Assembly (NCBI GenBank): GCA_023150375.1
Contig: JAKLLA010000001.1
Coordinates: 310,001-374,000, forward strand
DNA: 64,000 nucleotides
Source of the DNA: Burkholderiaceae bacterium
GTDB lineage: Bacteria > Pseudomonadota > Gammaproteobacteria > Burkholderiales > Burkholderiaceae_C
Reading direction: 5' to 3'
The translations under genes were made by a program, and so were the position numbers. Of this stretch, positions 17,013 to 53,697 are shown piece by piece. The notes under the pieces are model-generated. The model saw only the letters and a program-made list of their open reading frames with translations, did not search any database and had not been told where the DNA came from. Position 1 is the first letter of the stretch, and every line of letters starts with the position of its first letter.

Positions 17013-17159
17013 CTCTACACTCCGATTTGCGGGCCACGGATCGCGTGACCCCCTGCAGCACGAACGCCATCGACTCTCCATGTTCCGATGGGCCCGGCGG
17101 GGGCTGCAGATCCTCGCCATGAGCGTGGCCTATGGTCGAGGCGGGGGGGGCGGACGTCC

Positions 17160-20676: not shown

Positions 20677-20695
20677 GCCGGCTGGGGGGCCGGCT
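20676..20695 (+). terminator. Hairpin after the methyltransferase gene
   Basis: AGCCGGC - TGGGGG - GCCGGCT, a 7-bp stem overlapping the stop codon region and directly followed by the arsR promoter. No T-run is present. Confidence 0.35.
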
Positions 20696-20724
20696 TGACG
20701 GCCCTCTTTAATTTCGATTATTGT
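20695..20724 (+). promoter_or_regulatory. Probable arsR promoter placing +1 at the ATG
   Basis: TTGACG (20695-20700) and TATTGT (20719-20724) with an 18-base spacer sit in the only AT-rich patch of the area. A start 6-7 bases after the -10 falls on the arsR ATG (20731), and there is no ribosome site, so the message may be leaderless. The half-palindrome TTTC...GAAA (20712-20729) over the -10 is a candidate ArsR operator. Confidence 0.55.
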
Positions 20725-20730
20725 AGAAAC

Positions 20731-21108
20731 ATGGATTCAGACCTCTCCCACCCCGCCGACATCCCTGCCCCCTCCACGCCCCCGGCTGCCACGGCGCGCT
20801 TCGCGCGCATGCTGGCCGCGATGGGCACCGAGCCGCGGCTGAACATCGTGCGGCTGCTGCTGAGTGCGCATCCCCACGGGCTGGTGGTCGGCGAGATCGC
20901 GGCCGAGCTGGGCATCCCCAACTCCACGCTGTCGCACCACCTCGACAAGCTGCGCAACGAGGGGCTGGTGCAGGTGCAGCGCGAAGGCACCTTCCTGCGC
21001 TACTCCGCCCACACCGCCGGCCTGGAAGAACTGCTCGGATTCCTCTTCGCCGAGTGCTGCACCCGCAACCGCGCGGTGGAGCCCCGGCGCGTCGTGTGCT
21101 GCTCCTGA
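20731..21108 (+). CDS. arsR: ArsR-family arsenic-responsive repressor
   Basis: This 125-residue winged-helix repressor has the ArsR core (TEPRLNIVRLLLSAH, then the recognition helix NSTLSHHLDKLRNEGLV and wing QREGTFLRYSA). Cys pairs C109-C110 (AECCTRN) and C123-C124 (VVCCS) at the C-terminus are likely As(III) ligands, as in the subgroup of ArsR proteins with C-terminal thiols. It precedes arsM by 19 bases and probably represses the pair until arsenite binds. The ATG at 20731 has no ribosome site but lies exactly where transcription is predicted to begin. Confidence 0.9.
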   Translation: MDSDLSHPADIPAPSTPPAATARFARMLAAMGTEPRLNIVRLLLSAHPHGLVVGEIAAELGIPNSTLSHHLDKLRNEGLVQVQREGTFLRYSAHTAGLEELLGFLFAECCTRNRAVEPRRVVCCS

Positions 21109-21127
21109 TCAACCGTTGGAGGTTTCG

Positions 21128-22150
21128 ATGAACGCCCCTGTCGATACGAAAGTCGATGCGAATGTCGATGTGAAGGAGGTCGTGCGCCAGAAGTACGGCG
21201 AAGCGGCCCGGCGGGTCAGCCACGGTGCGGCCGGCAGCTGCTGCGGCGCAGGCAGCGCCAGCGCCGCCTCCGCCCTGGGCCAGTGCGACCCCATCACCGC
21301 CGACCTCTACGACGCGGCCCAGGCCGCCGACGTGCCGGCCGAGGCCATGCTCGCTTCGCTCGGCTGCGGCAACCCCACCGCGCTGGCCGAGCTGCGCCCC
21401 GGCGAAACCGTGCTCGACCTCGGCTGTGGCGGCGGCATCGACGTGCTGCTCTCCGCCCGCCGCGTCGGCCCCACCGGCATGGCCTTCGGCCTGGACATGA
21501 CCGACGACATGCTCGCCCTGGCCGAGGCCAACAAACGCAAGAGCGGCCTGACCCACGTGCACTTCCTGAAGGGCGAGATCGAGCACATCCCCCTGCCGCC
21601 CGACTCGGTAGACGTGATCATCTCCAACTGCGTCATCAACCTCAGCGCCGACAAGGACCAGGTGCTGCGCGAGGCCTTCCGCGTGCTCGAGCCCGGCGGC
21701 CGCTTCGCGGTCTCCGACGTGGTGCTGCGCGGCGAGGTGCCCGAGATCCTCCGCCGCAACGTCGAGCTGTGGATCGGCTGCGTCGCCGGTGCCCTGCGCG
21801 ACCGCGACTACCTCGCCAAGCTCCAGGCCGCCGGCTTCGAGGACGCCAGCATCGAGATCACCCGCGAATACACCGTCGAGGACGCCCGCGACTTCCTCGC
21901 CGGCCAACCCCTGGACCTGCAGGCCCTGGCCCAGCAGGTGGACGGCAAGTTCGCCAGCGGCTTCGTGCGGGCGCGCAAGCCGATGGGGGCGGTCGGCCAG
22001 GTGGCAGGCGGTGGGGCCACTGGCACCGCGGCGGCGACCGCCCCTGCGGCGGGGCCGGCTGCGGCCGCTTCGAGTGCCTGCGGCTGTGCGCCAAGCTGCT
22101 GTGGCGGGCAGCGGGCCTCGGGTTCCGGCCGGGCAGCGGCTTCTCGCTGA
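21128..22150 (+). CDS. arsM: ArsM, arsenite S-adenosylmethionine methyltransferase
   Basis: Methylates As(III) to methylated and volatile arsenicals. The 340-residue product starts at ATG 21128 after a strong GGAGG. SAM motif I is VLDLGCGGGIDVLLSA. The three arsenic-binding Cys positions of ArsM appear as C80 (SLGCGNP), C168 (SNCVINLS) and C218 (WIGCVAG). An extra CC pair lies at 38-39. The C-terminal tail after about residue 285 is Ala/Gly-rich and ends with a CGCAPSCCGG cluster, a Cys-rich extension that could bind arsenic. The operon is arsR-arsM only; no arsB, acr3 or arsC is nearby. Confidence 0.94.
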   Translation: MNAPVDTKVDANVDVKEVVRQKYGEAARRVSHGAAGSCCGAGSASAASALGQCDPITADLYDAAQAADVPAEAMLASLGCGNPTALAELRPGETVLDLGCGGGIDVLLSARRVGPTGMAFGLDMTDDMLALAEANKRKSGLTHVHFLKGEIEHIPLPPDSVDVIISNCVINLSADKDQVLREAFRVLEPGGRFAVSDVVLRGEVPEILRRNVELWIGCVAGALRDRDYLAKLQAAGFEDASIEITREYTVEDARDFLAGQPLDLQALAQQVDGKFASGFVRARKPMGAVGQVAGGGATGTAAATAPAAGPAAAASSACGCAPSCCGGQRASGSGRAAASR

Positions 22151-22321: not shown

Positions 22322-23530
22322 TCAGCCCAGCCAGACGCCTTCCACCCGCCCCAGCGCCTGCGACAGCTTCTCCGTCCCGAACGGCGACACCCCCAGCGCC
22401 ACCACTTCCCAGGGCGCGCCCACGGCCAGCCGCGGCTGCGCCATGCCGAAGTGCCGCCGCGCGGCGCTGGTGGCGGCGCGCAGCACGGCCTCGACGCCCA
22501 GGCCGGCCTCCTGGAAGCGGTCGGCCTCCTCGGCCAGCGCCTGGCCGTGCACCACGCCCATGCTGCCGGCGTCGGTGCCCAGCAGCAGGGTCACGCCCAG
22601 CGCGTCGGCCAGGCGGACCTGTTCGGCGTGGCTGTCCAGGATGCGGCGCAGGTTGCCCACGGTGTTCGCGCTCCAGCCCACCGCGTCCGGCTGGGCCCAC
22701 TGGAAGTGCACGGGGCAGAAGGTGGGCGTCCAGGCCAGGCCGCGGTCGCGCATCTTCAGCAGGTGCTCGCGGGTCATGAAGAAGCCATGTTCGATGGCAT
22801 CGACGCCCGCTTCCACCGCCACGTCCAAGCCCTTGACGCCGCTGCAGTGGGCAAACACCTTGCGGCCACAGGCATGCGCCGTCTCGACCACCAGCCGGGC
22901 GGCGGGGATGTCGAACTGCGGCTCGTCGGTGACGGTGCCGGCATCGAAATCGATGATGCCGGTGAGGATGAGCTTGATCTCGTCGTTGGCCTCGGCCAGC
23001 TTCGTCACCGAAGTGCGGATGCTGGCGGCGTCGTCCACATCGGTGGCCATGAAGGCGCCGTAGCGCTTGGCGCGCTTGACGCCCAGGCCGCCGGAGCGCA
23101 CGCGCGCCAACCCGGCGGAGGGGTCTCTGGCTTCGTCGCGGACGCGGTTGTTGATGCCGTGGCGGTCGCCCGCATCCCGCACAAGGGTGACGCCGGCGGC
23201 GAGGTTCTGGCGCGCGCTGCGGCGGGCGGCTTCGGTGAGCTGCTCGACGTCTTGCTTCAGGTGCGCCGAGCGGGTGGCGCTGTCCGTGGGGCCGCCGTCC
23301 AGGAAGAGGTGCACATGCGCATCCACCAGCCCCGGCATCAGGAAGGCCACGCGCTGCAGCGGCCAGCCCTGCGCGGCGAGCGTCTGGCCGTGGTCCCCTT
23401 CGGCCAGGCCGACCAGGCGGCCGTCCACCACCTTGAACGTGGTCGGGCCACCGGCGTAGCGGCGCTCGCCGTCGAACCACTCGGCGGCGACAAGGGCGAA
23501 GCGGTTCGGCGCTGGATTGGGCGCGTTCAT
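22322..23530 (-). CDS. Amidohydrolase-superfamily protein, last gene of the corrinoid operon
   Basis: This 402-residue metal-dependent hydrolase is of the imidazolonepropionase/prolidase-like group. Metal-site signatures are PGLVDAHVHLFLDGGP, a mid-chain Lys/His segment (DEIKLILTGIIDFDAG, KVFAHCSGVKGLD), AIEHGFFM and LLLGTDAGSMGVVHG. No signal peptide is present. Its start overlaps the upstream pterin methyltransferase stop as ATGA, so it is translationally coupled to a one-carbon pathway; it may hydrolyse the methylated substrate before, or the product after, demethylation. The substrate is unknown. Confidence 0.85.
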   Translation of the reverse strand: MNAPNPAPNRFALVAAEWFDGERRYAGGPTTFKVVDGRLVGLAEGDHGQTLAAQGWPLQRVAFLMPGLVDAHVHLFLDGGPTDSATRSAHLKQDVEQLTEAARRSARQNLAAGVTLVRDAGDRHGINNRVRDEARDPSAGLARVRSGGLGVKRAKRYGAFMATDVDDAASIRTSVTKLAEANDEIKLILTGIIDFDAGTVTDEPQFDIPAARLVVETAHACGRKVFAHCSGVKGLDVAVEAGVDAIEHGFFMTREHLLKMRDRGLAWTPTFCPVHFQWAQPDAVGWSANTVGNLRRILDSHAEQVRLADALGVTLLLGTDAGSMGVVHGQALAEEADRFQEAGLGVEAVLRAATSAARRHFGMAQPRLAVGAPWEVVALGVSPFGTEKLSQALGRVEGVWLG

Positions 23531-24459
23531 GCTTTGTAGAACTTCCGGACCGCTCTCAAGGCATTGGTACCGGTCTGTTCGAGGAAGTTGAGATACGCCT
23601 TCAGCACGTAGTGGTCCTCGGGCAGCGGCTCGTAGCCGCGCCAGGGGGTGCCGAGCACGGTGTCGAAGCCGTGCGGCACGGTCAGCGTCAGGAAGGCGTT
23701 CTCCAGGCTGTGCTTCAGGTCCGAGCCGTCGGCGGCCTTGGGCGGCAGCTGCTGGCCGATGTTGGACAGGCCACCCATCATGTGCACGCCCTCGAGCTCC
23801 GGGTCGGCGCCGATGAGCTGGATGGCGTCCACGGTGCTGCGGTTCAGCCGCTCGGTGTCCGCGATGATGGCGCTGACCGACATGTCGATGAAGATGTCGT
23901 CGGCCGGCATGCCGTAGTCACGCATCAGCCGCAGCACGCCGCGCCGGGCGGTGCCGTAGATTTCCTCGGCGGTCTTGTTGCCCTTGGCCACGGGCTTCCC
24001 ATCCACCTCTTCCACCCGCTCGCTGGCCATCAGGATGACCTTGAAGCGGTACTCACCGTAGAGCTCCATCAGGTCCCAGCGGTGCTCGGTGATCGAATTG
24101 ACGATGGGCAGCGCACCGCCGGCCTTGGCCGGGTCGTAGGCGGCCAGGCAGACGGCCTGCACCTTCTTGCTCGGGAAGTCGAAGGAGATCGGCACGGGGG
24201 TGACCTCCTGGATGGCGCGGATCACGGTGGCCATCCAGTCCGGGTCGGTCAGCGCCTGCGCGCCGATGTTGACGTTCAGCCAGCTCGCGCCCGCCTCGGC
24301 CTGCTTGACGGCCAGGGCCTGGATGCCGGCGATGTCCTGGTTGTCGAACAGCGCCTTGGTGCTCTTGAAGCCGGGGTTGATGCGCTCGCCGATGATGCGG
24401 ATGGGGAAGCCCTGCGGGGTGCTCGTTGGGGTCGCCGATGGGGTGACGGTGTGGGTCAT
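23527..24459 (-). CDS. Pterin-binding methyltransferase (corrinoid to tetrahydrofolate)
   Basis: This 310-residue TIM barrel of the dihydropteroate synthase / methyl-H4folate:corrinoid methyltransferase family resembles MtgA, AcsE and CmuB. Visible family features are IRIIGERINPGFKSTKALF, WLNVNIGAQALTDPDWM, VPISFDFPSKKV, GGALPIVNSITEH and VIMASERVE-like KVILMASERVEEV, then MSVSAIIADTER. It would move the methyl group from methyl-cob(III)alamin to tetrahydrofolate. The product CH3-H4F is the substrate for the MetF encoded at the head of the same operon. Overlaps with both neighbours are ATGA. Confidence 0.87.
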   Translation of the reverse strand: MTHTVTPSATPTSTPQGFPIRIIGERINPGFKSTKALFDNQDIAGIQALAVKQAEAGASWLNVNIGAQALTDPDWMATVIRAIQEVTPVPISFDFPSKKVQAVCLAAYDPAKAGGALPIVNSITEHRWDLMELYGEYRFKVILMASERVEEVDGKPVAKGNKTAEEIYGTARRGVLRLMRDYGMPADDIFIDMSVSAIIADTERLNRSTVDAIQLIGADPELEGVHMMGGLSNIGQQLPPKAADGSDLKHSLENAFLTLTVPHGFDTVLGTPWRGYEPLPEDHYVLKAYLNFLEQTGTNALRAVRKFYKA

Positions 24460-26318
24460 GATCCGAAGCCGATGTGCTGGAGGAAGGTTTTCTGGAAGTC
24501 GCTGCGGGAGCTGAGCTCCACGTAGCGGGCCTGGCGGGCGATCTGGGCGGCGCGCTGGCGGCGCTCGCGGCTGCTGAGCATCTGCTGCACGCCCAGGCCG
24601 GCGGCGTTGCCGACCTGCTCGAAGCGGTCGAGTGGCAGGGGCGGCAGCAGGCCGATGGCGCGGGCGCTCTCGACGCGGATGTAGGCGCCAAAGGCCCCGG
24701 CGATGACGAAGCGGTGAATCTGCGACTCGTCCAACCCCGCCTCGGCGCAGAGCAGCCTGACGCCGGTGCGGATGGCGGACTTGGCCAGCTGCACCGCGCG
24801 CACGTCGTTCTGGCTGAAGCGCACCGCGGGGATGCTGCGATGGCGCTCCTCGGTCTCCTCGGCCAGGGTGACGGCGCGCACGCCATCCACCTCGGCGATG
24901 CAAGGATGGCGGCCGGCGACGATGCGCCCGCGCGCGTCGATCCAGCCGGCGCCGACGAAGGCGGCCAGCGCGTCCAGCACGCCGGAGCCGCACAGGCCCA
25001 CGGGCACGACAGCGCCGATGACCTGCAGGCGCAGGGCGTCATCGACGACCTCGACGCGCTCGATCGCGCCCTCGGCCGCACGCATCCCGCTGCCGATGTG
25101 GCCGCCCTCCAGCGCCGGGCCGGAGGGGCAGGAGGCGGACAGGATGCGGCCGTCGTGGATCAGGCTGATCTCGGTGTTGGTTCCCACATCCATGATCAGT
25201 GACACACCGGGCGCCTGCCAGATCGCCTCGGTCGCCAGCAGCGCGGTGACGTGGTCGCCGCCGACGAAGCCGCCGATCGACGGTGCCAGGTGCAGCGCGG
25301 CGCCCGGCCCCAGCGCCAGGCCGAGGCGGTCGGCTGCCACGTCCAGCGGCTCCAGCGCGGCGGCGACGAAGGGCGCACGGCCCAGCTGCGCCACCGGCCA
25401 GCCGGCCAGCAGGTGCTGCATCGCGGTGTTGCCGCAGACCACGGCGTCGGCGATGTCGGTCACCTGCGCGCCCACCGCGCGGGCCAGGTCGTGCGCCAGC
25501 GACTGGATCGCGCCCACCGCGGCGCGGCGCAGGGCCTCGGCGGTGGCGGGCTCCTTGATCGCGTGGTTGATGCGGCTGATCAGGTCCGCGCCCCAGGCCA
25601 CCTGGGGGTTCTCCAACCCCAGGCTGGCCAGGCGCCGGCCGCAGGTGAGATCGACCAGAAAGGCCGCCGCGTTGGTGGTGCCCAGGTCCACCGCCAAACC
25701 CAGCAGCGGCGCCCCCGGGCGGGCGACGCTGGCCACGCTGAGCGGGCCGCCAGCCTCGGCCTGCCGCAGCCGGGCCTGCACCTGCCAGCCGTGCTGCCGC
25801 AAAACACTGGGCAGCTCGGCGCTGGCCGCCCAGTCGATGGTGGTCGGCTGGATCGGCTCAGGTTGCTCGGCCAGCCCACTGCGCAGCCGGTCGGCGTCGC
25901 TCGCCAGATCCTGCAGCGTGGCGGGCGGTAGTGTCAGCTCGATGGCGCTTAGCGAGGGGTCCAGCGGCAGCAGCGCTTCCTCGCCCTCATGACCCCCATG
26001 CGTGCGCACGTCGGCGCGCACGATGGGCGCCAGCGAGCGCGGTGCCACCTCCACCGTCAGGTCCGAACGCGGCTGGATGCAGCAGGCGCGCAGCCACTTG
26101 CGGTGCGCGCCCTCGCCTTCGCGGTGCACCCGGCCCTCGGTGACGCGCACGATGCAGGAGCCGCAGCTGCCGCGTCCGCCGCAGGCGCCGACGATGCGCA
26201 GGCCGGCGCGACGCGCGGCGGCGAAGAGGGTTTCGTCCTCCCGGCACTCGATCTGCCGGTCCAGCGCCGGCACGTCGATGCGGTGCGGACGGTGGGAGGA
26301 TGACGCGGCACTGCTCAT
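24456..26318 (-). CDS. RACE protein, ATP-dependent reactivator of corrinoid proteins
   Basis: This 620-residue protein has an N-terminal 2Fe-2S ferredoxin domain (C46, C52, C55 and C79 or C80; ACGGRGSCGSC), a linker, and a C-terminal ASKHA-like domain (LGLAVDLGTTNAAAFLVDL near 210, VVCGNTAMQHLL, IMDVGTNTEISLI, GLCGSGVLDALAAF, FVIAGAFGAYI). This is the RamA-like or DUF4445 architecture of reductive activators that return inactive cob(II)alamin to cob(I)alamin. It fits beside a corrinoid protein and two methyltransferases. Start ATG 26318 overlaps the upstream stop by 4 bases. Confidence 0.92.
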   Translation of the reverse strand: MSSAASSSHRPHRIDVPALDRQIECREDETLFAAARRAGLRIVGACGGRGSCGSCIVRVTEGRVHREGEGAHRKWLRACCIQPRSDLTVEVAPRSLAPIVRADVRTHGGHEGEEALLPLDPSLSAIELTLPPATLQDLASDADRLRSGLAEQPEPIQPTTIDWAASAELPSVLRQHGWQVQARLRQAEAGGPLSVASVARPGAPLLGLAVDLGTTNAAAFLVDLTCGRRLASLGLENPQVAWGADLISRINHAIKEPATAEALRRAAVGAIQSLAHDLARAVGAQVTDIADAVVCGNTAMQHLLAGWPVAQLGRAPFVAAALEPLDVAADRLGLALGPGAALHLAPSIGGFVGGDHVTALLATEAIWQAPGVSLIMDVGTNTEISLIHDGRILSASCPSGPALEGGHIGSGMRAAEGAIERVEVVDDALRLQVIGAVVPVGLCGSGVLDALAAFVGAGWIDARGRIVAGRHPCIAEVDGVRAVTLAEETEERHRSIPAVRFSQNDVRAVQLAKSAIRTGVRLLCAEAGLDESQIHRFVIAGAFGAYIRVESARAIGLLPPLPLDRFEQVGNAAGLGVQQMLSSRERRQRAAQIARQARYVELSSRSDFQKTFLQHIGFGS

Positions 26319-27064
26319 GCCGCGCCCTGCGCCTCGATCGGAATGGAACCCGCGGCGCGGAAGGCCGGATCCTTCACCAACGCGCAGCGCTCGCGCGAGC
26401 GACAGCTGTCGCAGCGCGACCAGGCCTGCGGCGGCAGGTCCAGGCCCACGCCCTGGACGATGGAGGTCGATTTGGTCGGGTTCATCATCAGCGTGGAAGT
26501 CAGCCGCACGCCGATCTGCTCGGCGCCGGCCAGGTCCAGCACCACCTGCTGGGCCTTCAGTGCCAGGCCAGGGTCGCCGGCGCGCAGTTCACCCGCGACG
26601 CACAGGCCCTGGCGGCGCATGGCGGCGAGCAGGCGGTCCTGCACGCGGCGCGACAGCGCGAAGAGCAGCTCGTTGGCCACGCCGTCCAGCGCCACCGCCA
26701 GCGAGGCGCGGCGCTCGGCGAACAGCGCGCCGATGCGCTGCTCCACCGCATCGCCCACCGTGGCGACCGCGCAGGCCGCGCCGGTGAGCTGCCCGCTGGC
26801 CGGCACCAGCCAGGGCGCTTCCAGCCGCCCGCCCTCCAGCTCCAGCCAGCCGGTGGCGCCGGGGCTGCCCTGCAGCGGCGCGATGCGCCAGCAGGCCCGC
26901 GCGGACAGCAGACCCTCGTCGCGCACCATCTGCAGCGCCTGCTGGCGCAGCGCGACGAACTTCTCGCGCCGCGCCACCATCGCCGGCACGCGGCCCTGCG
27001 CGACGTCCTTCAGGACATCGACATCGAGAAGAAGGTAGACGTCGGTGGGGGAAGCGGCCGTCAT
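26315..27064 (-). CDS. MetH activation-domain-like protein
   Basis: This 249-residue protein resembles stand-alone proteins of the vitamin B12-dependent methionine synthase activation-domain type found with corrinoid methyltransferases. Features: an N-terminal REKFVALRQQALQMVRDEGL helix, ATVGDAVEQRIGALFAERR in the middle, RLTSTLMMNPTKSTSIVQGV near 195-215 (corresponding to the MetH SAM-binding region), and a C-terminal CDSCRSRERC cluster that could bind an iron-sulfur cluster or metal. It may assist reactivation or docking between the corrinoid protein and RACE. The role is inferred from family resemblance. Confidence 0.72.
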   Translation of the reverse strand: MTAASPTDVYLLLDVDVLKDVAQGRVPAMVARREKFVALRQQALQMVRDEGLLSARACWRIAPLQGSPGATGWLELEGGRLEAPWLVPASGQLTGAACAVATVGDAVEQRIGALFAERRASLAVALDGVANELLFALSRRVQDRLLAAMRRQGLCVAGELRAGDPGLALKAQQVVLDLAGAEQIGVRLTSTLMMNPTKSTSIVQGVGLDLPPQAWSRCDSCRSRERCALVKDPAFRAAGSIPIEAQGAA

Positions 27065-27067
27065 CGC

Positions 27068-28342
27068 TCAGCCTGCGTACTTGCGCGCGGCATCGAACAT
27101 CGCCCGCACATTCGGCGTCGGCGTCTCGTCCGGGATGCCGAAGGCGCCGTCCAGGATCAGCTTTCCGCCCTTGCGCCAGACCTCGTCGACCAGGCGCTTC
27201 ACTGCGGCGTCCACCTCGTGTGGCTGGCCGGTGGTGAGCAGCGAGGGCGAGAGGTTGCCGCGCAGCGCGACGCGGTCGCCGAGCACTTCGAAGGCCTTGA
27301 CCATGTCGGTGCGCTCGAACCAGTAGATGCACTTGCCCGGCGGGATGTCCTTGATGACCTCCAGCCGCTTGGTGCAGTCGGCCTCCCACAGCGGCATCGG
27401 GATCAGGTCGGCCTCGATCAGCGTCATCATCAGCCGACGGAAGGAGGGCCACCAGAACTCCTCGAACTGCTTCGGGCTCATGAAGGCGTCCGGCGCCCAG
27501 TGGATCGGGATGAAGACGATCGGGTGGTTGGCCGCCTTCGCGTTGGCGATCGTCATGCGGGCGATGAACACCGCCGCCTTGTCCAGCACCTGCTTGAGCT
27601 TGTCCTTGTGCCGGAACAGGTCCTTCATCATCCCGGTGGCGCCGCGGAAGTAGTCGGCGATGAAGTCGTAGGGTGCGATCGAGTTGCCGCCGTTGATCAG
27701 CGGGAAGCCGGCGGCGTTGATCTTCTGCACCCAGTCCACATGGTTGGCGAAGAAGCGGTTGGTCTCCTCCGCCGCGGCGACGATCTTTTCGAAGGAAGCG
27801 CGCACCTCCGGCAGCGCAAAGGGCCGGATGCCGTTGACCAGGCGGAAGTAGTGCAGCCCGGGGAAGTCCGGCAGCTTGTCGAAACCCGAGAACGCCCCCG
27901 CCACCCGCGGCAGGTAGGTGTGCAGGTAGAAGCCGGTGGGATCGAAGAGGAAGTCGTCGTACTCCTCGGCCTTCATGTACTCGCGGTCGAGGTACTGGAA
28001 GGGCTGCATCGGCCCCACGCCGTGGCCCGGCCACTGCAGCTGCTTGAACTCCAGCAGCTCCAGCGAGCGGCCCATGTTGGTGCCCATCAGCAGCGGGTAG
28101 ACGCCGTCGGGCTCGAACTCGGCGACCACGTCGAAGCAGACCTTCTTCGCCTTGTCGTAGTCGTACATCAGCTCCTGGTAGGTGATGCCGCCATGCGTGG
28201 CCGGCCAGAAGAAGCTCTGCATCGCCACCGGCATGCGGTCGGGCTGCTCCAGCCGGGCGCAGGCCAGGATGCGCTCCCAGCGGGCGTCGTAAGCGGCCTT
28301 GGCGGCGTCGCTCTGTTCGTAGGCGCCGATCATCGTGGTCAT
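27068..28342 (-). CDS. UroD-family corrinoid methyltransferase
   Basis: This 424-residue TIM-barrel protein of the uroporphyrinogen decarboxylase superfamily is in the methyltransferase branch (MtaA, CmuA, MtvB and similar) rather than HemE. Evidence: no HemE signature, neighbours are a corrinoid protein and RACE, and the internal motifs ACARLEQPDRMPVAMQSFFW, INAAGFPLINGGNSIAP, VFIPIHWAPDAFMSPKQFEE and PMPLWEADCTKRLEVI, where Glu/Asp/Cys could hold the catalytic zinc. It probably demethylates an unknown methyl donor onto the corrinoid protein encoded immediately upstream (ATGA overlap). Confidence 0.85.
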   Translation of the reverse strand: MTTMIGAYEQSDAAKAAYDARWERILACARLEQPDRMPVAMQSFFWPATHGGITYQELMYDYDKAKKVCFDVVAEFEPDGVYPLLMGTNMGRSLELLEFKQLQWPGHGVGPMQPFQYLDREYMKAEEYDDFLFDPTGFYLHTYLPRVAGAFSGFDKLPDFPGLHYFRLVNGIRPFALPEVRASFEKIVAAAEETNRFFANHVDWVQKINAAGFPLINGGNSIAPYDFIADYFRGATGMMKDLFRHKDKLKQVLDKAAVFIARMTIANAKAANHPIVFIPIHWAPDAFMSPKQFEEFWWPSFRRLMMTLIEADLIPMPLWEADCTKRLEVIKDIPPGKCIYWFERTDMVKAFEVLGDRVALRGNLSPSLLTTGQPHEVDAAVKRLVDEVWRKGGKLILDGAFGIPDETPTPNVRAMFDAARKYAG

Positions 28343-29013
28343 GCCGCCACCCCCATCCAGTGGCGGCACAGGCCCACGGCCTCGACCGCGTTCACGCCGA
28401 AGGCGTCCGCCCCCGTGTAGGCGCGCACCGTCTCGTCGATCTGGCCGCCGCCGATCATCACCTTGAAGCCGGGGCGGATGCCGGCGGCGTCGAAGGCGGC
28501 AATCGTTTCCTTCATCGAGTCGAAGGCCAGCGTCAGGAAGCCCGACAGGCCCACCACGGTGGGCTGGAAGGCCTTGATCTCGTCGATGAAGGTCTGCACC
28601 GGCACGTCCACGCCGATGTCCTTCACCTCGAAGCCGTTGATGTCGAGCATGAAGGTGACGATGTTCTTGCCGATGTCGTGCAGGTCGCCGTGCACCGTAC
28701 CGATCAGCACCCGGCCGTGCGTCTGCGCCACGCCGCCGCCGGCGGCCTTGATGAGCGGCTTGGCGACCGCGCCGATGGTGTCCAGCATCTCGCCGGCCAG
28801 CACCAGCTCGGGCAGGAAGTACTCGCCCTCCTCGAAGCGCTTGCCGACGATGTCCATCGCCGCGCGACAGAGGTCGAGCACGTGCATCGGGTCCACCTTG
28901 TCCTCCAGCAGGAAGCGGTGGGCCAGCGGCAGCGCGTCGTCCTCGTTCATGTCGGCCAGCCATTCGACGAGCTGGCGCTCCTCATCGGTCCATTCTTCGG
29001 TCGGTTTGGCCAT
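28339..29013 (-). CDS. Corrinoid-binding methyl carrier protein
   Basis: This 224-residue MtaC/MttC/MtvC-like protein has an N-terminal helical cap (LAHRFLLEDKVDPMHVLDLC ... EEGEYFLPELVLAGEML) and a Rossmann B12-binding domain with the base-off signature D110-L-H112-D-I-G115 (GTVHGDLHDIGKNI), GLSGFLTLAF and MIGGGQIDETVRAY. It shuttles the methyl group from the UroD-family enzyme to the pterin methyltransferase. The family is usual in acetogens and methanogens and less common in a denitrifying betaproteobacterium. Confidence 0.95.
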   Translation of the reverse strand: MAKPTEEWTDEERQLVEWLADMNEDDALPLAHRFLLEDKVDPMHVLDLCRAAMDIVGKRFEEGEYFLPELVLAGEMLDTIGAVAKPLIKAAGGGVAQTHGRVLIGTVHGDLHDIGKNIVTFMLDINGFEVKDIGVDVPVQTFIDEIKAFQPTVVGLSGFLTLAFDSMKETIAAFDAAGIRPGFKVMIGGGQIDETVRAYTGADAFGVNAVEAVGLCRHWMGVAA

Positions 29014-29052
29014 GGGTGTCTCCTCGGTGGGTGCTCGGTGGGGGGTTTGAAA

Positions 29053-30504
29053 TCAGGAAGCTGAAGACGGGCTGATCAGCGGGTTGCTCAGCGGGCTGCT
29101 CGGCAGGCTGCGCAGGCCGGCCTCGACGATCACCTGCGCCAGCGTGGCCTCGTTGCGGTGGCCCATCAGGTGGATGCCGGCCACGCCCTCCAGGCGCTGC
29201 AGCGCGTGGATGGTCTCGATGCAGACACGCCGGCCTTCGCTGCGCTGGTCCTCGGCGGCGACGATGCGGGCGATCACCGCGTCGGGCACCGCCACGCCGG
29301 GCACGTGCTCGGCCATCCACTTCAGGCCGCGGGCGCTGGGCAGCGTGCCCACGCCGATCAGCAGCGCGGCGCGGCGGTGCAGGCCGCGGCGGCAGGCCTC
29401 GTCCAGGAAGGCGCGCAGGCGGTCGAGGTCGAAGCAGAACTGGGTCTGGATGAAGCGCGCGCCCGCGTCGATCTTGCGTTCCAGGTTGTCCACCCGGTCC
29501 ACGAAAGGCGGCACGAAGGGGTTGGCGGTGGCGCCCAGGAAGAGCCGCGGCGCCTGCTCCAGCGCCCGGCCGGAGGCGTAGGTGCCGCGCGCCGTCATGC
29601 CCTGCAGCACGCCCAGCAGGTTGACGGCGTCCAGGTCGAACACCGGCTTGGCCTGAGGGTGGTCGCCCTGGCTCACGTCGTCGCCGGTCAGGCAGAGCAC
29701 GTTGCGCACGCCCAGGGCCGCAGCGCCCAGCACGTCGCCCTGCACCGCGATGCGGTTGCGGTCGCGGCAGCCCACCTGGCAGACCGGCTCGAAGCCCGCC
29801 GCCGCCAGCACCGAGGCCGCCGCCACGCTGGACATGTGGCAGTTGCCGCCCGCGCCATCGGTGATGTTGATGGCGTCCACCAGGCCGCGAAAGCGCTCGG
29901 CCCGCGCCAGCAGCACGGCGGGGTCGGGCGAGTCCGGCGGGGCGATCTCCACCGTCACGGCAAAACGCTCGCCGCGCAGCGCATCCTGCAGGGCCGCGTC
30001 GAACGCGCTGACCGGTTCGACCGGCCGCGGCGCGGGCGGCGGGGCGGTCTGCGTCACCGGGGCCGCGCCCGGCTCCGGCTGGATCACCTGGAGCCAGGTC
30101 GAGCGCTCGCTGCGGCGGCGGTCCAGCGGTGCCAGCCAGGGCGCGGCCACCGAGCCGGCACGGCGCTGGCCGTCGCCCGCCTCCAGCCAGGTGCAGCGCT
30201 GCTGCGGCCTGACCTCGCAGCCGCCGTCGGCGCGCACGCCGCCGCAGGGGCCGTTGCGCAGCTGCTTGGCGCAGGTCATCGGGCAGGCCATGCCGGTGTG
30301 GCCCAGCACGCACTGGCCGCACATGCGGCAGTCGAACAGCAGGCCCTTGCCGGCGCGCTCCAGCGGGCGCAACCAGCGCTCGCTGCGCGCCAGCCCCAGG
30401 CCGCGCGCCAGCGGGGCCAGCCGGGGCGCCCAGCGCGCCCCCCAGCGGTACACGCGTGCCAGCCCCGCGGCATGGCGCACCGACCAGCGACGCAGGCTCA
30501 GCAT
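29053..30504 (-). CDS. Methylenetetrahydrofolate reductase with N-terminal Cys domain
   Basis: This 483-residue protein combines an N-terminal Cys-rich domain (about 50-115: FDCRMCGQCVLGHTGMACPM, then CAKQLRNGPCGG), matching the MTHFR_C module that usually belongs to a separate partner, with a MetF TIM barrel (FAVTVEIAPPDSPDP, NITDGAGGNCHMSS, NVLCLTGDDVSQGDHP, GARFIQTQFCFDLDRLRAFL). In this operon it would oxidise methyl-H4F to methylene-H4F, as MetF2 does in chloromethane degraders. Upstream frames begin at TTG 30564; ATG 30504 follows a GGGAG and is preferred. First gene of the corrinoid operon. Confidence 0.88.
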   Translation of the reverse strand: MLSLRRWSVRHAAGLARVYRWGARWAPRLAPLARGLGLARSERWLRPLERAGKGLLFDCRMCGQCVLGHTGMACPMTCAKQLRNGPCGGVRADGGCEVRPQQRCTWLEAGDGQRRAGSVAAPWLAPLDRRRSERSTWLQVIQPEPGAAPVTQTAPPPAPRPVEPVSAFDAALQDALRGERFAVTVEIAPPDSPDPAVLLARAERFRGLVDAINITDGAGGNCHMSSVAAASVLAAAGFEPVCQVGCRDRNRIAVQGDVLGAAALGVRNVLCLTGDDVSQGDHPQAKPVFDLDAVNLLGVLQGMTARGTYASGRALEQAPRLFLGATANPFVPPFVDRVDNLERKIDAGARFIQTQFCFDLDRLRAFLDEACRRGLHRRAALLIGVGTLPSARGLKWMAEHVPGVAVPDAVIARIVAAEDQRSEGRRVCIETIHALQRLEGVAGIHLMGHRNEATLAQVIVEAGLRSLPSSPLSNPLISPSSAS

Positions 30505-30556
30505 GCGCGGGCTCCCGGACGAGGCAGGCGGCAAAAGGAGGGCATGCACTGATTCT

Positions 30557-30683
30557 GGATCCAATCAGATCCAAATGGGATCCAATGCAACCGACCCATC
30601 GAGCAGATCAATGATGACAATCAAATGATCTCCGCCGAAACGGCCGGATCCGCACAAACCCGATGGCGGCGTATGGATCCAAT
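30557..30683. repeat. GATCCAA repeats in the corrinoid-operon / dctP divergent promoter
   Basis: GATCCAA occurs at 30558, 30569 and 30579, spaced 11 and 10 bases apart (about one helical turn), and again at 30676 within the near-palindrome GTATGGATCCAATAC. An inverted repeat AGATCA...TGATCT spans 30605-30631. The patch is much more AT-rich than its surroundings and lies between the divergent operons, so it is probably an operator array for an unidentified regulator. Confidence 0.6.
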
Positions 30684-30824
30684 ACATAGGATCACGCTGA
30701 CGAACCTGTCGGGTTCCCCCCGGTGACCGCCCCCCGGACGGCTGCCAGAATGACCCGGCCGTCGGTGCCCGCCCGCCCCTTCCGGGCGGCCCTGTCGAGG
30801 TCCACAGAACCACCGGAGACGCCC

Positions 30825-31856
30825 ATGAACCGCCGAATCACCCTCTCGCTGGCTGCGGCCGCGACCCTGCTGCTGGCCGGCCCCGTGCGGGCCCAGGAAG
30901 TGACGCTGAAGTTCCACCACATCTGGAACCCGCAGGCCATGGCCGCGCAGCAGGTCATCGCGCCCTGGTGCGCCAAGATCGCGGCGGAGTCGGGCAACCG
31001 GATGAAGTGTCAGGTGCTGCCGGCCATGAGCGGCGGCGGCACGCCGGCGCAGCTGGTCGACCGGGTCAAGGACGGCGTGGACGACCTGATCATCACGCTG
31101 CCGGGCTACACCGCGGGGCGCTTTCCGACCACCGAGGTGTTCGAGCTGCCCTTCATGACCAACTCGGCCGAGGCCGGCGCGCGCGCCACCTGGGACTTCT
31201 TCAACAAGCACTCGCTGCAGGAGTTCCCCGGCACCAAGCTGCTGGCCACCTGGGTGCACGACGAGGGCTACGTCCACACCACCACGAAGCAGGTGAAGAC
31301 GCTGGCCGACTTCCGCGGCCTGAAGATGCGCGCGCCGACCCGGCAGACCAACAAGCTGCTGGCCAAGCTCGGCGCCAGCCCGGTGGGCATGCCGCTGCCC
31401 GCGGTGGTGGACGCGGTGAGCAAGGGCACGATCGACGGCTTCGTGCTGCCCTGGGAGGTGATCCCGCCGCTCAAGCTGCACGAGATGGTCAAGTACCACA
31501 CCGAGACCGACCCGTCGCGCCCGGCGCTGTACAGCGCGGTGTTCGTCTTCGCGATGAACCAGGCGAAGTACGACAGCCTGCCGCCGGACCTGAAGAAGGT
31601 GATCGACGCCAACAGCGGCGCGGCGCTGTCGCAGCAGATCGGCCGCACCTGGGACGCCAGCCAGGCAGCCGGCCGCAAGGCGGCGCAGGAGCGCGGCAAC
31701 GTCTTCTACACCGTGCCGGCGACCGAACTCGACCAGTGGGTGAAGGCCTCGGAGAGCCTGTACGACGACTGGGCCGCCGACATGGACAAGCGCGGCCGCA
31801 ACGGCCGGGCCATGCTGGCCGAGGCGCGCGAGCTGCTCGCGCGCTACCGCAAGTAA
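30825..31856 (+). CDS. TRAP transporter substrate-binding protein (DctP family)
   Basis: This 343-residue periplasmic solute receptor starts at ATG 30825 with a Sec signal (MNRRITLSLAAAATLLLAGP, cleavage near RAQEV). DctP-family features are FHHIWNPQAMAAQQVIAPWC, GRFPTTEVFELPFMTNSAEA, LRGLKMRAPTR-like FRGLKMRAPTRQTNKLLAKL (the Arg contacts a ligand carboxylate) and GTIDGFVLPWEVIP. The ligand is therefore probably an organic acid. It is divergent from the corrinoid operon with a shared promoter region, so the ligand may be the methylated substrate. Confidence 0.93.
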   Translation: MNRRITLSLAAAATLLLAGPVRAQEVTLKFHHIWNPQAMAAQQVIAPWCAKIAAESGNRMKCQVLPAMSGGGTPAQLVDRVKDGVDDLIITLPGYTAGRFPTTEVFELPFMTNSAEAGARATWDFFNKHSLQEFPGTKLLATWVHDEGYVHTTTKQVKTLADFRGLKMRAPTRQTNKLLAKLGASPVGMPLPAVVDAVSKGTIDGFVLPWEVIPPLKLHEMVKYHTETDPSRPALYSAVFVFAMNQAKYDSLPPDLKKVIDANSGAALSQQIGRTWDASQAAGRKAAQERGNVFYTVPATELDQWVKASESLYDDWAADMDKRGRNGRAMLAEARELLARYRK

Positions 31857-31880
31857 GCCGGCGCGCCTGAGAGGTTGCCG

Positions 31881-32384
31881 ATGCAGCACTGGCTGGAACG
31901 CCTGTCACGCGGGTTCGCCGCCCTCGGCGCACTGGTCGCGCTGGGCGTGGCCGGCATGACGGTGGTGAGCATCGCCGGGCGATCGCTGTGGAGCCGGCCG
32001 ATCCCGGGCGATGTCGAGCTGACCCAGTTCGGCATCGCGCTGTGCATCTCGCTGTGCCTGCCCTGGGCGCAGGTGCGGCGGGCGAACATCGTGGTGGACT
32101 TCTTCACCCAGCGCCTGTCCGGGCGGTCCACGCAGCGGCTCGACGCGGTGGGGGCCGCCCTGCTGGGCGCGATGTGCCTGCTGCTGGCCTGGCGCAGCGC
32201 GGTCGGCGCGATGTCGGTGGCCGAGGCCGGCGAGGCCTCGATGATCCTGGACCTGCCGATGTGGTGGGTCTACGCCTCGCTGGTGCCCGGGCTGGCGCTG
32301 TCCGGCCTGGTGGCGCTGGTGCAGGCCGCGCAACTCGCGCGCGGGGCGCCGGTGGGCGGCGCAGACGCCGGCTTGCCCTCCTGA
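31881..32384 (+). CDS. TRAP transporter small membrane subunit (DctQ family)
   Basis: This 167-residue protein has four hydrophobic segments (about 15-35, 52-70, 91-108, 128-150) and the family pattern GRSLWSRPIPGDVELTQFGI and LPWAQVRRANIVVDFF. The upstream in-frame TTG at 31875 is also possible, but GAGAGG at 31869-31874 is better spaced for ATG 31881. It forms the membrane complex with DctM. Confidence 0.9.
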   Translation: MQHWLERLSRGFAALGALVALGVAGMTVVSIAGRSLWSRPIPGDVELTQFGIALCISLCLPWAQVRRANIVVDFFTQRLSGRSTQRLDAVGAALLGAMCLLLAWRSAVGAMSVAEAGEASMILDLPMWWVYASLVPGLALSGLVALVQAAQLARGAPVGGADAGLPS

Positions 32385-32445
32385 GCCGGCCGATCCGGCT
32401 GCACCGCCCGCCCCCACCCCGCGCCACACCTCGAGGCAGAGCGAC

Positions 32446-33768
32446 TTGACCCCCACGACGATCGGGCTGGCGATGTTCGCCGCCATGCTGCTGGCCATGG
32501 CGCTGCGCGTGCCCATCGCCGCGGCCATGTTCATTCCCGGCGCGCTGGGCTACTGGGCCCTGAGCGGCGAGGCGGCGCTGCTCAACCAGATCAAGGGCTC
32601 GGCGGTGGCCCGGCTGACGGTCTACGACCTGTCGGTGATCCCGCTGTTCCTGCTGATGGGCCAGTTCGCCACCCAGGGCGGGCTGAGTGCAGCGCTGTTC
32701 CGCGCCGCGGCGGCCTGGATCGGGCACATCCGCGGCGGGCTGGGCATGGCCGCGGTGCTGGCCTCGGGCGCCTTCGGTGCGGTCTGCGGCTCGTCGGTGG
32801 CCACCAGCGCGACCATCACCCAGGTGGCCTACCCGGAGATGAAGGCGCACGGCTGGCACGGCCGGCTGTCCACCGCCACGCTGGCCACCGGCGGCACGCT
32901 GGGCATCCTGATCCCGCCCTCGGTGCCGCTGGTGGTCTACGCCATCCTGACCGAGCAGAACATCGCCAAGCTCTTCGCCGCCGCGGTGCTGCCGGGGCTG
33001 CTGGCGATGCTGGGCTACCTCGTCGTGCTGGCGCTGCTGGCACGGCGCCACCCGGACATGGCGCCGGCCAGCCAGCGCGTGCCGCTGCGCGAACGCTGGA
33101 GCCTGCTGTGGGCGATCTGGCCCATCGTCGGCATCTTCGTGGTGGTCTTCGGCGGCATCTACGGCGGCGTGTTCTCGCCCACCGAGGGCGCGGCGGTGGG
33201 CGCCGTCGGCACGCTGCTGGCCGGACTGCTGCAGCGCGAGCTGACCGTGTCGAAGATCGTCACCGCGCTGCTGGGCTGCGCCGAGACCTCGGCGCTGGTG
33301 TTCATGATCTTCCTCGGTGCGGACATGATGAACGCCTCGCTGGCGCTCACCGGCATGCCCGCCGCAGTGGCCGACTGGGTCGGCGGCCTGGCCGTGCCGC
33401 CCTGGCTGATCGTCGCGGCGGTGATGCTGCTCTACGTCGCGCTGGGCTGCGTGATGGACGAGCTGTCGATGCTGCTGCTGACCATCCCGGTGATCTTCCC
33501 GGCCGTGATGGGGCTGGACCTGTTCGGCCTGGTCGGCCAGGAAAAGGCGATCTGGTTCGGCATCCTGGTGCTGATGACGGTCAGCGTGGGCATGATCGTG
33601 CCGCCGGTGGGGCTGAACGTGTACGTGGTCAACAGCCTGGCGCGCGACGTGCCGATGGCCGAGACCTACCGCGGCGTGCTGCCCTTCCTGCTCTGGGACG
33701 CGCTGCGCATGCTGCTGCTGCTGGCCTTCCCGCTGCTGGCGCTGGGCCTGGTGCGGGCGCTGTACTGA
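32446..33768 (+). CDS. TRAP transporter large permease subunit (DctM family)
   Basis: This 440-residue permease has about 12 hydrophobic segments and DctM motifs: RVPIAAAMFIPGALGYW, VIPLFLLMGQFATQGGLSAA, FGAVCGSSVATSATITQVAY, GGTLGILIPPSVPLVVYAIL, FGGIYGGVFSPTEGAAVGA and MIVPPVGLNVYVVNSLARDV. It starts with TTG 32446 behind GAGGCAGAG. It completes the dctPQM operon and uses a sodium or proton gradient for uptake. Confidence 0.93.
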   Translation: MTPTTIGLAMFAAMLLAMALRVPIAAAMFIPGALGYWALSGEAALLNQIKGSAVARLTVYDLSVIPLFLLMGQFATQGGLSAALFRAAAAWIGHIRGGLGMAAVLASGAFGAVCGSSVATSATITQVAYPEMKAHGWHGRLSTATLATGGTLGILIPPSVPLVVYAILTEQNIAKLFAAAVLPGLLAMLGYLVVLALLARRHPDMAPASQRVPLRERWSLLWAIWPIVGIFVVVFGGIYGGVFSPTEGAAVGAVGTLLAGLLQRELTVSKIVTALLGCAETSALVFMIFLGADMMNASLALTGMPAAVADWVGGLAVPPWLIVAAVMLLYVALGCVMDELSMLLLTIPVIFPAVMGLDLFGLVGQEKAIWFGILVLMTVSVGMIVPPVGLNVYVVNSLARDVPMAETYRGVLPFLLWDALRMLLLLAFPLLALGLVRALY

Positions 33769-53590: not shown

Positions 53591-53697
53591 GGTGTTCTCC
53601 AGGGAGCGATGTGAGTGCCGTCCCGTGCGCAGCGCACGGTGTGCCTGCCGGGTCACAACGTGGACGGGAGTCTCGATCCCCAGGCAAACCCGGATCC

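Follow-up and report, generated by a model that had tools for sequence, protein, structure and literature searches.

Which methylated compound does the corrinoid- and H4F-dependent operon in this stretch of DNA act on? The operon occupies positions 22322–30504 on the minus strand of the window (the whole stretch analysed, 64,000 nucleotides), and its seven genes encode MetF, a corrinoid protein, a UroD-superfamily methyltransferase, a MetH-activation-fold protein, RACo, a pterin methyltransferase and an amidohydrolase. We consider it likely that this operon serves the oxygen-independent, corrinoid/H4F-dependent O-demethylation of vanillate or a closely related methoxybenzoate. The demethylase reading draws on gene content and order, two predicted folds, residue conservation, and the operator-like sites and linkage seen in the genomes; from these we infer the substrate, the direction, every reaction and the binding of a repressor.

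Gene content of the operon and its host

The initial annotation had described a complete minus-strand corrinoid/H4F operon divergent from dctPQM, and we found all ten genes where it had placed them. The gene positions also bore out the divergent arrangement, which leaves a shared control region (30505–30824, the gap between the metF and dctP calls). Genes were called with a crude caller and their start sites are approximate. The metF gene (29053–30504) encodes a methylene-H4F reductase of the MetF type whose chain also includes an N-terminal Cys domain (Pfam MTHFR, 1.2e-31; DUF5981, 3.1e-21); we prefer its ATG start at 30504 to a TTG at 30564, which is overlapped by an operator-like site. The corrinoid protein (28339–29013; B12-binding, 2.8e-22; B12-binding_2, 9.9e-14) carries the expected DxHxxG motif as DLHDIG at residues 110–115. 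It is followed by the UroD-superfamily methyltransferase I, the predicted O-demethylase (27068–28342; URO-D, 5.4e-25), and by the MetH-activation-fold protein (26315–27064). The latter had no Pfam match at 0.001, with Met_synt_B12 appearing only at 0.027, and was recognised by its AlphaFold model (pLDDT 90), which Foldseek matched to MetH activation domains (1j6r, E 1.7e-10; by profile, E 0.0015); an alignment of 30 sequences revealed conserved C-terminal cysteines (C218, C221 and C227). The operon continues with a RACo-type protein for reductive activation of the corrinoid subunit (24456–26318; RACo_C_ter, 6.8e-74, with Raco_middle, RACo_linker and Fer2) and a pterin methyltransferase (23527–24459; Pterin_bind, 1.5e-11), presumably the methyltransferase II that passes methyl groups from the corrinoid to H4F, which matched NF005719 at 1.1e-29 and 103.5 bits, below the cut-off of 259. 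The amidohydrolase gene comes last (22322–23530; Amidohydro_1, 5.3e-21). The near-universal four-base overlaps first noted held at four of the six junctions, with gaps of 3 bp (uroD to the activation-protein gene) and 39 bp (metF to the corrinoid gene) at the remaining two. The host genome has a second MTHFR gene, on contig C37.

On the plus strand, dctP (30825–31856; DctP, 2.4e-45; ATG start, with a GTG at 30723 also possible), dctQ (31875–32384; DctQ, 7.6e-22) and dctM (32446–33768; DctM, 8.1e-85) encode a TRAP solute-binding protein and its small and large permeases. The transporter is of an organic-acid type, in line with the ligand that had been suggested from DctP. The nearest solved chains to DctP include 5im2 (E 7.4e-109), 5i5p, 7nr2 and 7nsw; several of these are aromatic-acid complexes, but our reading of the ligand does not rely on them. 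By description, the transporter resembles TarPQM, a TRAP system that takes up cinnamic acids derived from lignin (PMC3610893), in being a putative DctP-type importer of aromatic acids. The linkage of transporter and operon holds at this locus but is not constant: dctP occurs in 8 of 79 named homologous loci, and a genome of the same genus (proteins 92–97% identical) has a gene for a Rieske oxygenase with a VanA_C domain in place of the TRAP genes.

The claim that the host is a denitrifier is reasonable, as NapA and NosZ scored above curated cut-offs; nirS was not confirmed, an NCBIfam search of 15333–17120 at 1e-20 giving no match. The host also has two ligA genes, two LigB-type genes, a FolD-family gene and a PurU above its cut-off. 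Near the second ligB are genes that we named by eye as P450, ferredoxin and reductase, although no P450 model scored above its cut-off. We found no PF06050, taken as a marker of class I benzoyl-CoA reductase, in the host genome, so anaerobic ring opening by that enzyme is unsupported.

The UroD-family methyltransferase and its relatives

The nearest solved sequence to the UroD-family methyltransferase is CdmB (9rui; E 9.9e-38, or 3.8e-54 by profile) of the CdmBCA system of Acetobacterium dehalogenans, with which it shares the UroD-type barrel. Its model is a UroD-type TIM-barrel (pLDDT 93); the top Foldseek matches were uroporphyrinogen decarboxylases (6w2o, E 5.1e-12), MtaA (4ay7) ranked fifteenth, and CdmB was absent from the match list for the structure library searched. 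Residues H281, E320 and C323 are invariant in all 31 aligned rows and are candidate metal ligands, and they are retained together with the corrinoid motif. By contrast, CdmB has W, Q and H at these positions in the sequence alignment. A search of the sequence for an HxC motif found none. A zinc motif, E-X14-E-X20-H, is also absent from this sequence. His-Cys-Cys ligands are reported for S-methyltransferases of the superfamily (PMC10418091), and PMC13222342 describes the Moorella O-demethylase as lacking zinc, which makes metal a weak criterion for membership among O-demethylases. As far as comparisons were run, we saw no tight clustering with a characterised enzyme, CdmB itself being distant.

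The gene set agrees with that of UroD-superfamily O-demethylases: a separate DxHxxG corrinoid protein, a pterin methyltransferase II and a reductive activase accompany the methyltransferase in one operon. Acetogen O-demethylases (MtvABC, Odm and Vdm) and archaeal Mto likewise combine a UroD-superfamily methyltransferase I, a corrinoid protein, a methyltransferase II (acting on H4F, or on H4MPT in archaea) and a reductive activase (PMC13222342, PMC8630106); the likeness to MtvB, OdmB and VdmB is one of described gene sets rather than of directly compared sequences. Unlike those systems, the operon here is proteobacterial and adds a dedicated MetF, the MetH-activation-fold protein, an amidohydrolase and VanR-type sites. 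CdmBCA is described in PMC13222342 as haloalkane specific, with no metal in the crystal, and differs from the operon in gene set as well as in the three residues. CmuA and MtaA/MtbA share the superfamily and the corrinoid chemistry, but the operon's enzyme lacks HxC and scores far below cut-offs (TIGR01463, MtaA/CmuA: 44.4 bits against 235.4). Type 1 mlp clusters have multiple Mlps with His-Cys-Cys ligands and, according to PMC10418091, no H4F methylase gene, whereas the operon has one UroD gene, no HxC and a pterin methyltransferase.

We built a FastTree phylogeny from the UroD proteins of the 79 loci together with those of the window and locus L029 and CdmB, the sole characterised reference; in-frame stops were converted to X, a partial-codon warning was printed, and L108, which had split matches, was left as is. 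In this tree, the window and L031–L047 form one clade. Searches of plasmid and phage sequences gave distant UroD proteins or nothing, and a UroD stretch on a Sporomusa plasmid was dropped, as none of its 12 annotated features was named as another methyltransferase component. The family of this predicted UroD-type demethylase is widespread in Proteobacteria.

VanR-operator-like sites and vanA linkage

The sequence ATTGGATCCAAT is printed as VanO, the VanR operator, in PMC7970624. The window contains three sites within two mismatches of it, all in the control region and all imperfect: TCTGGATCCAAT (30554–30565, two mismatches), ATGGGATCCAAT (30575–30586, one mismatch) and TATGGATCCAAT (30672–30683, two mismatches). 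Three such sites were reached in none of 100 shuffles. The motif was first found by seeking a word common to two promoters, and the test on 79 loci came afterwards. Across the 4.63-Mb host genome, we found 12 sites at this threshold and none with a reversed-pattern control. The only perfect copy (C1:385830) lies 45 kb away, in the gap that separates vanA from a gntR gene of the VanR group, and a one-mismatch site (C1:385883) sits at the called start of that gntR, upstream of which there is an in-frame ATG. This gntR (L123:11884–12606; GntR and FCD domains) adjoins vanA on the same contig as the operon, and the nearest solved relative of its product is Atu1419 (6z74), which has been assigned to the VanR group and proposed to respond to methylene-H4F, not to an aromatic (PMC7797058). 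The operon and dctPQM thus appear, from these sequence matches, to be predicted members of a VanR regulon, sharing a switch with the oxygen-requiring VanA. VanA_C domains were present in the host VanA and in all four neighbouring Rieske proteins scanned. NCBIfam gave no VanA name, the host VanA and three neighbours best matching a methylsterol monooxygenase model far below its cut-off, and by eye we recognised no vanB-like gene beside the host's own vanA.

The operon genes recur together more often than chance would give. Corrinoid, activation, RACo and mtrH genes were all present in 50 of the 79 loci, many of which are cut by contig ends, and 37 of these 50 had metF within the available sequence. 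VanO-like sites recurred as well: 14 of 32 in the 79 loci fall upstream of metF, a space of 14.8 of 1,224 kb (1.2% of bases), and the single control site did not fall there (0 of 1). Within the window's own clade, 7 of the 12 loci in which the region upstream of metF is visible had VanO-like sites, and L034 and L038 carried exact copies of ATGTATACAT, the palindrome of Atu1419. Three of the four exact ATGTATACAT matches in the loci lie upstream of metF; at one mismatch there were six sites upstream of metF, one of them at the metF start itself (L034), and for that reason only exact matches were used. Outside the clade, VanO-like sites were found in only 1 of 28 loci with the region visible, and other subclades may therefore have other substrates.

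We also observed vanA, vanB, ligAB and pobA among the neighbours of homologous loci. VanA-type oxygenase genes were present in 10 of 35 loci tested, against 0.18 expected from a background of 34 genomes (those behind 35 of the 79 loci; the locus and background searches differed in program and database, with thresholds roughly alike). All eight loci with a vanB-like gene had the order vanA–vanB–metF on one strand, and L032, L045 and L046 of the window's clade have metF after vanA and vanB in this way. The Poisson (VanA linkage) and binomial (operator) tails treat loci as independent; because some loci are syntenic relatives (L045/L046; L069/L073/L081), independent events are fewer than the loci counted and the probabilities overstate independence.

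Substrate, proposed pathway and meaning

The substrate had been regarded as not obvious from the protein families. Vanillate, or a methoxybenzoate close to it, is what the VanR-operator-like sites, the vanA, vanB, ligAB and pobA neighbours and the vanA–vanR pair on the contig point to. The same machinery might act on another methoxylated aromatic (veratrate, isovanillate, syringate, 3- or 4-methoxybenzoate or guaiacol), with the VanR-group repressor reading a general lignin-aromatic or methylene-H4F signal. We regard this as unlikely, though it deserves weight: it is favoured by the effector proposed for Atu1419, by the diversity of VanA-type proteins in homologous loci (31–66% identical to that of L032) and by the putative P450 group near the second ligB, and it is countered by host sites that match VanO (PMC7970624), with the perfect copy at the host's own vanA.

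A demethylase for halomethanes, methylamines, betaines or methyl-sulfur compounds is very improbable. Although CdmB, a chloromethane enzyme, is the nearest solved sequence, we rejected a CdmB-like identity given the differing candidate active-site residues; the low MtaA/CmuA score and the aromatic-acid type of the gene neighbours argue in the same direction, and the lack of HxC argues against methyl-sulfur compounds. A methylated amide, ester or lactam opened by the amidohydrolase, as the initial annotation hinted from that gene, seems more improbable still. The gene is nearly constant as the last of the operon (43 of the 48 loci in which the sequence runs on for 700 bp or more past mtrH), and its putative metal ligands (H72, H74, K186, H228, H248 and D320) are invariant in 28 of 28 rows, but it is absent from five operons with room (L058, L080, L085, L103 and L104), and the operator-like sites and neighbours indicate free aromatic acids. 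We also considered a formyl- or methenyl-H4F hydrolase role for the amidohydrolase, one made needless by the host's FolD and PurU. The enzyme is conserved but stands outside the proposed pathway. Least probable of all is reverse operation, in which the system would add a methyl group to its substrate, as does Emt, the estrogen methyltransferase found in denitrifiers; Emt, too, is thought to be cobalamin dependent, and a RACE-like gene lies close to it (PMC7448270). MetF, the TRAP genes and the vanA linkage fit methyl removal, and identity with EmtABCD was rejected, as EmtA is described as MtmB-related (PMC7448270) and the protein here belongs to the URO-D family.

For demethylation of vanillate or a close methoxybenzoate, we propose that DctPQM would import the methoxylated acid and that the UroD-family enzyme would transfer the methyl of its methoxy group to the corrinoid protein in the Co(I) state, leaving protocatechuate or the matching phenol as the product. 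The methyl group would then go to H4F by way of the pterin methyltransferase, and the fused MetF would oxidise methyl-H4F to methylene-H4F, consistent with the earlier expectation of a demethylation set in a denitrifier that delivers methylene-H4F. General folate enzymes (FolD and PurU) could carry this on to formate, with nitrate as the terminal electron acceptor. Corrinoid that has slipped to Co(II) would be re-reduced by RACo, perhaps helped by the MetH-activation-fold protein. Control of the operon and of dctPQM would fall to the VanR-group GntR protein whose gene adjoins vanA; acting at the three operator-like sites, this single repressor would govern both the oxygen-requiring and the oxygen-free routes. 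The aerobic vanillate O-demethylase VanAB and its repressor VanR share the predicted operator type, the genomic linkage and the presumed substrate with the operon, but VanAB is an oxygen-dependent Rieske system, whereas the operon is predicted to be corrinoid/H4F dependent.

More tentatively, and with rather more doubt than confidence, the operon could represent a widespread, previously undescribed proteobacterial branch of corrinoid O-demethylases, in denitrifiers and others, that does the work of VanAB without oxygen and belongs to the VanR regulon. A single repressor, which might sense the methylene-H4F that the operon itself would produce, would preside over both routes; paralogues would cover lignin methoxy-aromatics, and the amidohydrolase would perform a novel step in methoxy-aromatic or folate C1 metabolism. 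Paralogues of the demethylase may, in any case, serve other methoxylated aromatics. A search of one open-access library found no report of such corrinoid demethylase genes in Proteobacteria, which is not proof of novelty. Methoxy groups from lignin make up a large pool of carbon. A nitrate-reducing Thauera is reported to degrade methoxylated aromatics anaerobically. Sulfuritalea, the name attached to 3 of the 79 loci (L046, L069 and L073), was labelled by veratric acid in anoxic groundwater (PMC10602745). The operon offers a concrete gene set and a predicted inducer. If our reading is true, facultative anaerobes keep two demethylases of unrelated chemistry for the same substrate and place both under a single switch, and this would aid the reading of soil, aquifer and wastewater metagenomes in which methoxy carbon could feed denitrification.

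A conserved operon and its methyltransferase

We confirmed the seven-gene operon claimed in the initial annotation, which runs on the minus strand from metF (29053–30504), its first gene, through an amidohydrolase gene (22322–23530), its last, with dctPQM (30825–33768, plus strand) divergent from it. Overlaps of 4 bases, described there as nearly universal, were present at four of six junctions; the other two have gaps of 3 and 39 bp. Family searches backed the gene names, with the sole exception of the 'MetH-activation-like' protein, which had no Pfam match at 0.001. As judged by a structure prediction (pLDDT 90), this protein resembles MetH activation domains (top match 1j6r, E 1.7e-10). Converging on the 3′ end of the operon (20695–22150, plus strand) are an arsR-like gene, for which NCBIfam gave no match at 1e-20, and after it an arsenite methyltransferase gene (NF008823, 349 bits, above cut-off); this enzyme is SAM-type, not corrinoid, and is unrelated to the operon by strand.

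The operon is real and conserved. A same-genus genome (locus L027) carries all seven genes at 92–97% identity. Within the 19.5 kb examined around that operon, dctP, dctQ and dctM had no match, and their place is occupied by a divergent gene for a Rieske oxygenase that has a VanA_C domain. Of 149 genomes in the host's wider group, four, the host's own counted, encode a full-length relative of the UroD-family protein, so the operon is accessory. A scan of a named genome collection yielded 79 loci, kept from the best 80 of 99 confirmed stretches. These are mostly from beta- and alphaproteobacteria by record title, and include Thauera phenylacetica, Aromatoleum anaerobium and Paramagnetospirillum caucaseum. 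The gene-neighbourhood search found the corrinoid, activation, RACo and mtrH genes together in 50 of these 79 loci, with metF within the examined stretch in 37 of the 50. The amidohydrolase is nearly constant (43 of the 48 loci with room for it, among the same best 80 of 99) and its putative metal ligands are all retained in 28 of 28 aligned rows, yet it has no clear step in the scheme proposed below. Several genomes of the collection hold more than one UroD copy. Two related loci have a MetE-like gene on the other strand, upstream of metF (L036:6468–7586; L037 from 6412, minus strand); the L036 protein scores above cut-off for NF005085.

The UroD-family protein (METHYLTRANSFERASE) has a UroD fold in its predicted structure (pLDDT 93). 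The solved sequence closest to it is that of CdmB (profile E 3.8e-54), followed by uroporphyrinogen decarboxylases at 3.7e-9 and weaker, and its score fell far under the MtaA/CmuA cut-off. CdmB is a chloromethane methyltransferase described in PMC13222342 as kin of the O-demethylases MtvB, OdmB, VdmB and MtoB. All 31 aligned sequences keep residues H281, E320 and C323; CdmB has W, Q and H at these positions. According to PMC10418091, S-methyltransferases of this superfamily use His-Cys-Cys, and O-methyltransferases have one or both cysteines replaced. The putative H-E-C ligand set would fit the O-methyltransferase group, if these residues bind metal; the Moorella O-demethylase, however, is noted to lack zinc (PMC13222342).

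Aromatic-acid genes near the operon

Across the 79 loci (best 80 of 99; 1.22 Mb in total), neighbouring genes encode VanA-type Rieske oxygenases in 15 loci, VanR-like GntR regulators in 10, VanB-like reductases in 8, DctP in 8, LigA in 5, LigB in 5 and PobA in 3, as well as two families of LivK-type binding proteins (14 and 8 loci). All eight loci with a vanB-like gene have the same-strand order vanA-vanB-metF, and gntR lies between vanA and vanB in four loci (L045, L046, L062 and L100). The VanA_C domain was found in the host VanA and in all four neighbouring Rieske proteins scanned (L027, L032, L043 and L069); among NCBIfam models, none named these proteins, the top match being methylsterol monooxygenase, far under cut-off. 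Curated cut-offs were exceeded by PobA of L045 and L037 (4-hydroxybenzoate 3-monooxygenase) and LigA of L045 (protocatechuate 4,5-dioxygenase alpha subunit), and L045, L046 and L047 each encode a LigB protein that scored above cut-off as a class III extradiol dioxygenase.

As background, 34 of the genomes contain 40 VanA-like genes in all. A VanA-like gene lay within the examined stretch of 10 of 35 loci, compared with 0.18 expected from this background; the true strength of this excess is lower because the loci are partly related, but it is large nonetheless. In the window's own clade of the UroD tree (17 loci, L031–L047), where many stretches are incomplete, vanA lies near five loci and ligAB near four, seven different loci together.

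Two further arrangements were seen. An indolepyruvate ferredoxin oxidoreductase family gene and a gene recognized by eye as AMP-ligase-like have a related operon directly downstream on the same strand (L083:4377–7838; L028:8349–11828). In L059 (975–5472 and 8274–11242), a solitary UroD paralogue has as neighbours a CoA-ligase-like gene and boxC, boxB and boxA, which all exceed their cut-offs; this is again an aromatic-acid context.

Sites resembling the VanR operator

The contig that carries the operon also has the host vanA, whose product is 68% identical to VanA of L032, together with a GntR/FCD gene, 45 kb from the metF-dctP gap; inspection by eye revealed no vanB-like gene beside vanA. The nearest solved relative of the regulator is 6z74, Atu1419, which PMC7797058 assigns to the VanR group. 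Comparison of promoters identified the word TGGATCCAATC in both the vanA-regulator promoter and the metF-dctP gap. The full palindrome, ATTGGATCCAAT, is the VanR operator VanO as printed in PMC7970624; VanR is the repressor in vanillic-acid-inducible switches. At up to two mismatches, the window contains three VanO-like sites, all within 30554–30683, and none of 100 shuffles reached three. The whole genome contains 12: three in this gap, two at vanA/gntR and seven elsewhere; a reversed-pattern control gave none. The only perfect copy lies between vanA and gntR, and one further site lies at the called gntR start.

Since the motif had been spotted by inspection of two regions, we then looked for it in the other 79 loci (best 80 of 99). 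Of 32 VanO-like sites in these 1,224 kb, 14 fall within the 14.8 kb that lie upstream of metF; the control pattern occurred once, outside that region (0 of 1). The region upstream of metF is visible in 12 loci of the window's clade. Seven have VanO-like sites there, and in two (L034 and L038) the palindrome to which Atu1419 binds, ATGTATACAT, is present without mismatch (PMC7797058). In the remaining three, vanA and vanB precede metF on one strand, and the sites lie upstream of vanA: L032 has VanO-like sites, L045 and L046 a related TTGTATACA-type site. In the same-genus operon there are a pair of TGTATACAT sites, spaced 197 bp apart, and a single VanO-like site with two mismatches. Of 28 loci outside the clade, only one has VanO-like sites, so regulation in the other subclades is probably different, and their substrates may differ too.

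A putative route for vanillate in a denitrifier

The host, whose genome comprises 4.63 Mb in 43 contigs, was said to be a denitrifier; this is reasonable, since NapA (7971–10529, plus strand) and NosZ (51296–53656, minus strand; Sec-dependent type) exceed their curated cut-offs. These genes surround the operon, one on each side. A cytochrome-like protein (15333–17120) matched no NCBIfam model at 1e-20.

We infer every reaction step of the following scheme. Vanillate or a close methoxybenzoate would be imported through the TRAP system, the UroD-family protein would transfer the methyl group of the substrate to Co(I) of the corrinoid protein, and the pterin methyltransferase would pass it to H4F. 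The dedicated MetF would produce methylene-H4F, which could proceed to formate via FolD and PurU, both present in the genome; nitrate would be the electron acceptor. Elsewhere the genome has a second MTHFR gene with a far better family score, which fits this MetF being catabolic.

The aromatic product would be protocatechuate, for which the host's two ligA and two LigB-type genes provide an oxygen-dependent route. PF06050 (HGD-D), which we take to be a marker of class I benzoyl-CoA reductase, is absent from the host genome; without oxygen, the ring may therefore be kept or excreted. Near the second ligB-type gene, on contig C20 of the host genome (L122:990–3860), are genes recognized by eye as cytochrome P450, ferredoxin and ferredoxin reductase; such P450s are presumably 4-methoxybenzoate demethylases (CYP199). 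The signal for the host regulator could be either vanillate or methylene-H4F, the latter having been proposed for Atu1419 (PMC7797058).

In the open-access literature searched, we found no description of a corrinoid O-demethylase operon in Proteobacteria; one may exist elsewhere. The operon is most likely an oxygen-free vanillate-type O-demethylase set within a VanR regulon, a reading that yields a directly testable prediction.
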